From: an uncultured bacterium
GTDB lineage: Bacteria; Cyanobacteriota; Vampirovibrionia; Gastranaerophilales; Gastranaerophilaceae
Direction: 5' to 3'
DNA length: 51,316 bases
Assembly: GCA_902796925.1 (NCBI GenBank)
Contig: CADBQW010000005.1
Span: 1-51,316 of the forward strand
The notes under the pieces were generated by a model. The model saw only the letters and a list, made by a program, of their open reading frames with translations. It did no database searches and was not told the DNA's origin. This document shows, one piece after another, positions 45,661 to 48,514 of this stretch. Both the position numbers and the translations under genes were made by a program. The stretch's first letter is position 1. Each line of letters begins with the position of its first letter.

Positions 45661-46431
45661 ATGAAAATTGGTGTAATTGGTTTAGGTTTGATAGGTGGTT
45701 CGATTTTCAAGTCCCTTAAAAATATGGATTTTGAAGTTGTCGGGGTTTCTCAATCTCAACAGGGTGAAGATATATATAAAGATTATAGTATCTTGTCTAG
45801 TTGTGAAATTATTTTTGTGTGCTCACCTATGAATAAAACCCTTTATATTCTTGATGAAATTGAAAACTATCTGTCAGAAGATACTATTGTAACCGATGTT
45901 TGTTCCTTAAAAGAATTCGTAACTAAGAAAAAATACAAATTTAATTTCGTTCCGTCACATCCAATGGCAGGAACAGAAAAAAGAGGGTTTGAAAATTCCT
46001 TTCCAGAACTATTTAAAGGGGCAAAATGGGCAATAATCATAAATCCAACTAATGATAATGATTTTAAAGGAGTGGATAAGCTAACCGCAATTATCGAAAA
46101 AATGGGCGCAAAGGTTGTTTTTACAACTGCAAAAGAGCACGATGAAGCTGTAGCTTTAATTTCGCATATGCCTCTTATTATTTCTCAAGCGCTTTTCTTG
46201 ACCGCTTCTGATAATCCGCTGGCTATGGAGCTTGCATCAAGCGGATTTCGGGACATGACAAGACTAGCCATGTCAAACACAGAAATGGCAAATGACATGG
46301 TTTTAATGAATAGTAAAAATATTGAAAATTCCATTCTTAAACTTTATAAATCGGTAGGAGATTTGACTTCTAAAAATTATCTTTCTGCCATAAATCAAAT
46401 AAAATTAAAACGTGAAAAAATGTTCAAATAA
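45661..46431 (+). CDS. tyrA: Prephenate (arogenate) dehydrogenase
   Basis: 256 residues. It oxidatively decarboxylates prephenate or arogenate in tyrosine synthesis. The NAD-binding MKIGVIGLGLIGGSIFKSL, the catalytic-region SHPMAGTEKRGFENS, and HMPLIISQALFL with SSGFRDMTRLAMSN are TyrA signatures. The protein is short and lacks an ACT or chorismate-mutase domain, so feedback control is not evident. The preferred substrate cannot be told from sequence; cyanobacterial relatives often use arogenate. Confidence 0.95.
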   Translation: MKIGVIGLGLIGGSIFKSLKNMDFEVVGVSQSQQGEDIYKDYSILSSCEIIFVCSPMNKTLYILDEIENYLSEDTIVTDVCSLKEFVTKKKYKFNFVPSHPMAGTEKRGFENSFPELFKGAKWAIIINPTNDNDFKGVDKLTAIIEKMGAKVVFTTAKEHDEAVALISHMPLIISQALFLTASDNPLAMELASSGFRDMTRLAMSNTEMANDMVLMNSKNIENSILKLYKSVGDLTSKNYLSAINQIKLKREKMFK

Positions 46432-46481
46432 GTAAAATCAAAATTGTCACGTTTTAATTGTAACAATTTGTTAATAAAGAC

Positions 46482-46513
46482 TTGACCCGCGGGGGGGGGG
46501 GGTGACATATAAT
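46482..46513 (+). promoter_or_regulatory. Promoter with poly-G spacer (predicted phase-variable)
   Basis: TTGACC (46482-46487) and a perfect TATAAT (46508-46513) are separated by 20 bp, of which 46491-46502 are twelve consecutive G. Loss of three G would restore 17 bp, so slippage could switch expression. GGAGG follows the -10. The nearest downstream reading frames are the truncated prepilin (46681) and the Wzx-like gene (47060). The stretch 46514-46634 holds no convincing gene, only small inverted repeats such as CCGCC/GGCGG. Confidence 0.6.
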
Positions 46514-46634
46514 GGAGGTAGGTCCGCCACGCAGGGCGGGGAATTCGAGGATTTCAAATAGTTGAAAGGCATTAGGGCAATAAGAGGGGGGATGTCCCTT
46601 ATCCTTGCCACTGGGGTTTTATTGAGGGCTATAG

Positions 46635-46670
46635 GGCAATAAGATAATAAGATAATAAGGCAATAAGGCA
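46635..46670 (+). repeat. 8-bp tandem repeat, about 4.5 copies
   Basis: GGCAATAA, GATAATAA, GATAATAA, GGCAATAA and a partial fifth unit lie end to end. The consensus is G(G/A)(C/T)AATAA. A related GGGCAATAAGAG occurs once about 60 bp earlier. Eight is not a multiple of three, so copy changes would shift any frame that crosses them. Confidence 0.75.
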
Positions 46671-46680
46671 TATTCTTCTT

Positions 46681-46986
46681 GTGGTTACAAAGCTCCATAT
46701 CCTTGGAAATACACCAATAATTTATTCTGGTAATATAAATCAAACTAGAGAGTTAATGTTTTTTATCGATTTAAACGGAGCACTTGGACCTAACAGGTTT
46801 GGTCGAGATGTATTTATCTTTGCGATAAATGATAAGGGTTATCTTACCTCATATCCTGCTCATAGATCACTGAACGATTTAAATTCTATAAAAGTATACT
46901 GTGCACCTAATAGTAATGTTGGAGAATGGTGTGCACGAAAAATAGAGTATGACGGCTGGAAGATCAAAGATGACTATCCATGGTAG
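46681..46986 (+). pseudogene. C-terminal fragment of a prepilin-like protein
   Basis: The frame encodes about 101 residues with FFIDLNGALGPNRFGRDVFI, then YCAPNSNVGEWCARKIEYDG and the ending WKIKDDYPW. The pattern DxNGxxGPNxxGxDxFxF, two Cys, and a DGWxIxxDYPW end is that of the C-terminal domain of large families of type II/IV pilin-like proteins with N-terminal methylation signals. That N-terminal helix is missing: all three upstream frames are closed by stops and no GFTLxE motif exists between the poly-G promoter and here. Its proposed GTG start has no ribosome site. I read it as a decayed or donor (silent cassette) copy. Confidence 0.55.
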
Positions 46987-47059
46987 GTTAAATATTAACA
47001 CTAATAAAGAATTAATATACAAAGTTGTATAATAATATTTTTGCTATAGAATAGTGGGG

Positions 47060-48514
47060 ATGGAATATATTGAGAATAAAGAGGAAGAAAATAAGCAAAT
47101 GCGAGCCATATTCGATGATATGGCAAAGTATGCACCCTCAAAAATTGTGGGAACTATCGGTAATGCAATAATTGTGCCGGTATACACAAGTATGCTTTCA
47201 CCTCAAGAGTATGGATTATATACTTTGTCGATTGCTGTTCTTTCTTTTTTATGTATTATTTTTTCTGATTGGGTTGGGTTATCAGGATTGAGATTTTTTC
47301 GCCAGCATCAGATAATACAAGATATGCCTCGATACCTGACAACTCTATTTATGATTTTAATGTCTAACATTTTATTAATGTTTGTATTATGTTTCTTCTT
47401 CAGGCAAAATTTTTATTCATTTTTCCACATTCCCGTTAAGTATTTTTTAGCTATTCTGATTTTAATAATTCCTGTCGCAATAAGGGCTATATTATCTCAA
47501 TTGCTGCGTGCGCAATTGAAGTCTATAGCTTTCACAATGTCAACTATTATAAATCAGTTTTTAACTATAATTATCTCAATAGTATTAATAAAATATTTTC
47601 ATCTCGGTGCAATGTCTTTACTTTTGGGTATGGGTATTGGTATTACTTTAGTTGATATATTACTAATTTATCAATCGGGTATTCTGAAGTGGTTCAGACT
47701 TCAAAAAATACGATGGGAAACTTTAGCACCGGTTTATCTATATGGTATCCCTATTGCTGCGACTTCACTTACAACGTGGATAATTAACCAAAGTAATAAA
47801 CTTATTATGAACAGTATTCATGGGTTTTCACAAGTGGGTATAGTTGGGGTTGCATACGGTTTAACTTTGCCAATATTAATGACAATGTTTGCTATAATTA
47901 CTGTTGCTGCAATTCCGCGAATTATCAATATGTATGAGGCTAAAATTGATGTAAGACCGATTATTTCAAAATTTATGGGATATTATATACTTGTTGCATT
48001 ACCTGCTGTTATGGTAATGAGTATATGCAGTTTAGATTTTGTTCATATTTTTGCCAGCAGTGAAAAGTTTTATGTAGCATATAAGATTATACCTTTTTTT
48101 GCTTTCGGAACGTTTTTCTTGTCGTTTACGGACTATACGACATTACAGTATCATTTGGCAAATAAAACATATATAGATTTTATTATAAAATTGGTCTCCG
48201 GTATTGCAGGGATAATTTTGAATTTGTTATTAATACCTAAAATGGGCCTTGTTGGAGTTGGTGTTGCAACATTATCGGCAAATTTGTTGTACTTGTTGCT
48301 AAGTCTCATAATAGTATTGCCGGGGCTAAATGTGATTTACCCAAAAGACATTTTATTAAAGCTATTGATATCAATGTTCCCGTTTGGCTTAACGCTCTTT
48401 CTTGTAAAGGAATGCAGTTTTGTATACACTCCGTTTAGATTGCTCCTACCGCTTTGTGTTTTCTATGGTGTGTATTTTCTTATAGATAAAAAATTTAAAT
48501 TTAATAATATTTGA
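47060..48514 (+). CDS. Polysaccharide flippase (Wzx/MATE-like, polysaccharide_synt family)
   Basis: About 484 residues with some 12-14 hydrophobic helices. YAPSKIVGTIGNAIIVPVYT, LSPQEYGLYTLSIAVLSF and the later VPVAIRAILSQLLRAQLKS-like segment (here IIPVAIRAILSQLLRAQLKS) are typical of O-antigen/teichoic-acid type flippases that move lipid-linked oligosaccharides. ATG at 47060 is preceded by GGGG; GTG at 47054 is the alternative. It is near no glycosyltransferase, but the CDP-sugar cluster and WecA-like gene could supply its substrate. TATAGA about 9 nt upstream suggests its own promoter. Confidence 0.9.
   Translation: MEYIENKEEENKQMRAIFDDMAKYAPSKIVGTIGNAIIVPVYTSMLSPQEYGLYTLSIAVLSFLCIIFSDWVGLSGLRFFRQHQIIQDMPRYLTTLFMILMSNILLMFVLCFFFRQNFYSFFHIPVKYFLAILILIIPVAIRAILSQLLRAQLKSIAFTMSTIINQFLTIIISIVLIKYFHLGAMSLLLGMGIGITLVDILLIYQSGILKWFRLQKIRWETLAPVYLYGIPIAATSLTTWIINQSNKLIMNSIHGFSQVGIVGVAYGLTLPILMTMFAIITVAAIPRIINMYEAKIDVRPIISKFMGYYILVALPAVMVMSICSLDFVHIFASSEKFYVAYKIIPFFAFGTFFLSFTDYTTLQYHLANKTYIDFIIKLVSGIAGIILNLLLIPKMGLVGVGVATLSANLLYLLLSLIIVLPGLNVIYPKDILLKLLISMFPFGLTLFLVKECSFVYTPFRLLLPLCVFYGVYFLIDKKFKFNNI

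Follow-up and report, generated by a model that had tools for sequence, protein, structure and literature searches.

Dispersed promoters with poly-G spacers as candidate phase-variable switches of type IV prepilins in an uncultured Gastranaerophilaceae bacterium

A run of twelve consecutive G between promoter-like hexamers, found in a 51,316-nucleotide stretch of DNA from an uncultured member of the Gastranaerophilaceae (the whole of this stretch is hereafter called the window), belongs to a family of similar sites scattered over the same genome. We consider it likely that slippage in this poly-G tract acts on a whole family of dispersed promoters, which would switch pilins at random, copy by copy. 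The best-supported reading of the sequences compared is that the lineage varies its prepilin repertoire by promoter spacing in the window's species and by frameshift in its relatives. With somewhat less assurance, we lean towards a prepilin contingency repertoire that extends over the family, is mostly off, and carries its poly-G switch at two levels, namely the leader-peptide coding sequence in most sampled genera and the -35/-10 spacer in the window's species.

In the proposed mechanism, replication slippage would alter the number of G and with it the separation of TTGACC from TATAAT, which is 20 bp with G12, 18 bp with G10 and 17 bp with G9; the original prediction that losing three G would bring the window copy to the optimal 17-bp spacing is arithmetically correct. 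Spacing would then set the strength of each sigma-70-type promoter independently. The transcript would begin near +46520 with a hairpin leader; in an intact cassette, AATAAGGC repeats would come next and then the gene for a type IV prepilin. The outcome would be a random, reversible, copy-by-copy switching of pilins. The window copy would represent a family promoter left before a prepilin pseudogene. We infer promoter activity, slippage in populations and the dependence of expression on spacing from the sequence.

The features of the locus are collected in Table 1. As had been noted, TTGACC and a perfect TATAAT are 20 bp apart with twelve G between them, the remainder of the spacer being CGC (46488-46490) and TGACA (46503-46507). 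A simple promoter scan, which allows spacers of 16-18 bp only, called no site at this promoter. The window has a GC content of 34%, and G12 is its only G or C run of at least 8; by composition, 5e-5 runs of at least 12 would be expected in it (about 1 in 20,000). Matches to GGGGGGGG numbered five in the window versus 0.27 in shuffles, and 0 of 100 shuffles reached five. At 46458-46475, the TTGTNACAA palindrome is followed by TTAATAAA, and the reverse strand of this segment may loosely resemble the cyanobacterial HLR1/RpaB box.

Table 1. Features of the poly-G promoter locus and its neighbours in the window.
Feature	Coordinates	Strand	Evidence
Upstream gene, prephenate dehydrogenase (tyrA-like)	45661..46431	+	Pfam PF02153/PF20463
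TTGTNACAA palindrome at upstream box	46458-46466	+	Sequence
Upstream box TGTAACAATTTGTTAATAAAG, element 5' edge, possible regulator site	46459..46479	+	Near-invariant in 19 copies
Putative -35, TTGACC	46482..46487	+	Identical in 18/19 copies; TTGCCC in C49
G12 homopolymer, proposed slippage site	46491..46502	+	Length 9-18 in 17 copies, 4-5 in 3
Putative -10, TATAAT	46508..46513	+	Identical in 17/17 aligned copies reaching the -10; C23 (CATAAT) left out
Predicted transcript leader, start predicted near 46520	46519..46567	+	Copy alignment, predicted fold
Hairpin UCCGCC/GGCGGG	46523-46528 + 46535-46540	+	Predicted fold, copy alignment
AATAAGGC-type leader repeats, joined directly to the element here	46566..46671	+	Similarity to other copies
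Prepilin pseudogene, 3' part only	46668..46986	+	Similarity to C11, C115 and C44 prepilins; frame change
Downstream polysaccharide flippase-like gene	47054..48514	+	Pfam PF13440/PF01943

Copies were sought in the window's own assembly (1.57 Mb in 123 contigs) with positions 46440-46720 as the query. This search returned 59 matches, about 20 of which span the promoter region, with identities of up to 96%. The assembly contains 25 G or C runs of at least 9, versus about 0.3 expected, and 17 of the 25 sit within one dispersed element of about 110 bp. The view that a 12-G run is anomalous in this genome thus holds with respect to composition, but not with respect to its being a peculiarity of one locus, since long runs recur both genome-wide and family-wide. 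Twenty copies of the element were found in the assembly, 17 with G9-G18 and three with a short tract. The element starts at its 5' edge with TGTAACAATTT(C/G)TTAATAAAGG, has the core TTGACC-CGC-Gn-TGAC(A/G)-TATAAT and continues into a leader with GTCCGCCACGCAGGGCGGGGAATTCGAGGATTTCA, while the DNA upstream of it is mostly unique to each copy. A 20-mer from the upstream box is essentially restricted to the element in its own genome and is rare in relatives, and a control search with the reversed pattern gave 0 matches in the own genome. Four GTDB contigs matched the strict pattern (from Akkermansia, Croceivirga, a planctomycete and an acidobacterium); they show no resemblance outside the pattern and were set aside as chance matches.

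Several other poly-G tracts of this genome were also noted. A second small group with similar flanks is formed by C79:18139, C24:4811 and C43:89 (tracts of 11, 10 and 9, respectively), and in the first two the tract is followed, after some 100 bp, by the ATG of a gene that encodes a related protein; a search for a -10 gave no clear site in this group. On C65 (L062:1566), a G11 tract interrupts the coding sequence for a large EF-hand-like protein, whose ORF now stops after 160 codons and with one G fewer would be open for 658 codons, making it a candidate frameshift switch within the same genome. C51 and C9 each have a G tract towards the 3' end of an ORF, synthase-like with 426 codons in C51 and acyltransferase-like with 251 codons in C9; slippage at these positions would alter the C-terminus only.

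Within the element, the tract varies and the hexamers do not. The longest G run of the 17 long-tract copies is 9 in one, 10 in two, 11 in four, 12 in five, 13 in two, 14 in two and 18 in one, and is 4-5 in the three short-tract copies. When pairs of copies with flanks at least 95% identical were compared (paralogues, not strains), G number differed in 12 of 15 pairs, indicating that the tract changes faster than its surroundings, in line with slippage. Substitutions were found at 1 of 216 hexamer sites versus 42 of 535 adjoining bases (p = 7e-6, which is indicative only, as the copies share ancestry). The copies have two features of a homopolymer-spacer phase-variable promoter, a tract placed between the -35 and the -10 and a tract length that differs between near-identical copies. 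Spacers in the 16 full copies that could be measured were 15, 18 (two copies), 19 (five), 20 (five), 21 and 24 bp (two), so that none has the ideal 17 bp. Sigma-70 promoters with 19-20 bp spacers, corresponding here to G11-G12, are expected to be weak. We predict that most copies in the assembly (spacers of 18-21 bp) are weak or off, in keeping with the predominance of OFF coding tracts in relatives.

The strongest rival explanation retains phase variation and places a different site at the far side of the tract: the homopolymer would be a phase-variable spacer between an activator site, TGTAACAATTTNTTAATAAA, and the -10, with the number of G setting the rotational and linear phasing of the activator. 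The upstream box is indeed almost as conserved across the copies as TTGACC, spacers are typically 19-20 bp and not 17 bp, and the Bordetella fim promoters pair a conserved fim box with a C-stretch. However, TTGACC makes a good -35 (five of six positions) and hardly varies, the analysis identified no regulator, and recent shared ancestry could also have conserved the box. We regard this version as unlikely and retain the -35/-10 distance as the probable variable.

Promoter-like copies were followed downstream to the genes that they would control. At C1, C20 and C79:1338, the element is succeeded by a leader of about 200-400 bp with AATAAGGC repeats and then by a type IV prepilin gene, whose mature start, where readable, is FTLAET. 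The prepilin is intact at C79:1338, and those of C1 and C20 are cut by contig ends. The PF07963 cut-off was passed by C20:16359, C79:846 and C115:7261; contig C115 starts inside leader sequence in which the promoter contig C84 ends. About ten copies run off contig ends, as would be expected if near-identical cassettes had collapsed in the assembly. Where the sequence upstream of further prepilin genes in this genome was read, it contained no poly-G. No prepilin faces the long-tract copies C52, C60:15702 and C79:13447, or the short-tract copies C23, C59 and C97, and some copies are antisense to the next gene. The gene next to C60:15702 appeared ECF-sigma-like from a reading of its translation.

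With regard to the leader, all pairable cells of the UCCGCC/GGCGGG hairpin pair in an alignment of 13 copies, and C97 carries one compensatory change (G-C to A-U). This covariation amounts to a single event, and 102 of 500 shuffles reached the observed value. When folded alone, the window leader did not outperform its shuffles (z -0.35); conservation is confined to the short 5' hairpin, and an Rfam search gave no match. Retention of the hairpin lends mild support to a transcribed leader.

These observations also bear on whether the element could be an inert dispersed repeat, with a tract diversity due to neutral slippage or assembly noise. Such a repeat would account for the copies that lack a prepilin or are antisense to the next gene, for the pseudogene that the window copy faces, and for contigs C14 and C62, which terminate at the tract or just past it. 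It would not explain why the hexamers are conserved while the flanks vary and the leader hairpin is kept, nor why 17 of the 25 long G runs lie in promoter-like spacers with none found by the reversed-pattern control in the same genome. We therefore find an inert repeat quite unlikely.

The window copy appears to be a degenerate member of the promoter family. The prepilin remnant that had been suspected downstream of it was confirmed: residues 28-105 of the query are 68% identical to the prepilin ORF of C11, and identity to the prepilins of C115 and C44 is 37-43%; a Pfam search of the remnant gave no match. It is truncated at its 5' end, so that the N-terminal cleavage motif is gone, and it is frameshifted, with SSCGYKAPYPWKYTNN and INQTRELMFFIDLNG in different frames. 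No intact surface-structure gene lies under the window promoter. As its prepilin is a truncated and frameshifted remnant, the window copy is probably derelict, and it might switch nothing useful. The second gene that had been proposed downstream, a flippase, is backed by its Pfam matches (Table 1). No terminator-like site was found between the window promoter and this gene, and readthrough into it, 500 bp downstream, is speculation. The original prediction of a phase-variable promoter is partly supported by comparison, given the conserved hexamers, the varying number of G, the prepilins downstream and the ON and OFF tracts of relatives, but it finds only a remnant as its target in the window.

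Elsewhere, the leader repeats separate the promoter element from the prepilin start codon. In C36 (L070:1083-1298) they are joined to a prepilin 3' end, as they are at 46566-46986 of the window (contig C5), and these junctions suggest recombination or deletion among prepilin cassettes. A related possibility is that the G tract initiates recombination or forms a G-quadruplex for prepilin gene conversion, the promoter being incidental. In Neisseria, a G4 structure of G3 runs at pilE drives gene conversion with pilS, and the present loci resemble that system in having dispersed near-identical 5' regions, a G-rich tract beside the promoter upstream of a type IV pilin gene, and partial pilin copies. 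Silent pilin cassettes lack a promoter and an N-terminus; the truncated 3' prepilin copies of C5 and C36 are joined to leader repeats, and in C5 also to the promoter. Unlike at pilE, the tract is here a pure homopolymer of variable length, uninterrupted in almost all copies, and does not show the four G3 runs with short loops of a G4 motif; moreover, the coding tracts of relatives set the reading frame, which is a better fit to slippage. A gene-conversion site thus seems very unlikely to us. That the element is a MITE- or REPIN-like mobile element carrying a promoter by chance is hardly credible since, despite its dispersed copies and mostly unique upstream flanks, no terminal inverted repeats bound it, its 3' end grades into the prepilin cassettes, and no copy was found in the viral, phage and plasmid collections searched.

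The relatives lend independent support to switching. From eleven genomes of the family we sampled 71 G or C tracts of at least 9, drawn mostly from around tracts or from tract-rich genomes, and the resulting counts are thus not family-wide rates. Forty-five of these 71 tracts have a prepilin cleavage motif downstream, and the tract is usually placed about 10 codons past an ATG with a ribosome-binding site. A start could be assigned for 44 tracts, 9 of them in frame (ON) and 35 out of frame (OFF), and for OFF tracts a change to another length would reopen the frame through the whole prepilin. The relatives thus display a 5' tract, a single length modulo 3 that is in frame and a shifted ORF that is open, and across the family their coding tracts look like contingency loci that act by frameshift. 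In blocks chosen regardless of tracts, a prepilin motif follows 9 of the 18 tracts, as opposed to about 1% of positions drawn at random on each strand. Tract proteins from the four relatives tested match N_methyl, two of them above the cut-off and two below. The genus mate G001 has three coding-tract prepilin loci, one ON and two OFF. Poly-G or poly-C prepilin tracts were observed in relatives G001, G004, G008, G011, G024, G028, G042, G048 and G059, and G10 tracts are abundant within the family.

The exact promoter-spacer pattern was not found in two genus mates, and tyrA gene order in genus mates differs from that of the window. DNA similarity searches over 99 relatives and 383 family genomes gave, outside the own genome, nothing beyond short, weak matches. 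Among relatives, the pattern was seen in G012 only, as one weak case; this site, TTGACAAGCGGGGGGGGTATTATAAT at C28:4484 in a different genus, has G8 between promoter-like hexamers 14 bp apart.

Homopolymers in promoter spacers (Bordetella, Neisseria, Mycoplasma) and G tracts in coding sequence (Bifidobacterium) are already known. The nearest parallel is with Bordetella fim2, fim3 and fimX, whose promoters contain C-stretches in which tract length changes transcription and the distance from activator to -10 has been proposed as the variable (PMC1891110). In both cases a homopolymer lies in the promoters of several paralogous fimbrial or pilin genes; whereas in Bordetella it is a poly-C that separates the -10 from an activator box in few paralogues (PMC1891110), here it is a poly-G flanked by a recognisable -35 and -10 in about 17 copies, before type IV prepilins, in an unrelated bacterium and in predicted promoters. 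In Mycoplasma hyorhinis, each vlp surface-protein gene has its own homopolymer-spacer promoter that slips independently, with poly-A and lipoproteins in place of the poly-G, dispersed loci and prepilins described here (PMC10502178, PMC2268961). The homopolymer between the -10 and -35 of Neisseria porA and fetA changes promoter strength, but these are single genes as opposed to a dispersed promoter family, and the flanking sequences are unrelated (PMC5320596). In gut-commensal Bifidobacterium, sortase pili are switched by G-tract slippage, resembling the coding-tract prepilins of the relatives; the switch there is an intragenic frameshift acting on sortase pili, unlike the promoter and type IV prepilins of the window's species (PMC9187656). 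The homopolymer beside the -10 of Mycoplasma agalactiae vpma has no role in switching, which calls for caution in reading the poly-G as a switch. A literature search yielded no paper joining phase variation with Gastranaerophilales, the one match for Melainabacteria concerning flagellin diversity. The lineage, the scale and the two tract locations appear to be undescribed.

If the proposed switching is true, each cell could show its own combination of pilins, and this would be among the larger randomly switched pilin systems, with a bearing on the attachment, movement, phage escape and host immunity of uncultured, probably gut-dwelling bacteria. Out-of-frame tracts imply that automatic annotation will miscall many prepilins as pseudogenes. 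Metagenome reads that already exist would allow tract lengths to be counted without culture, and the lineage offers a natural comparison of analogue promoter tuning with digital frameshift for one gene class.
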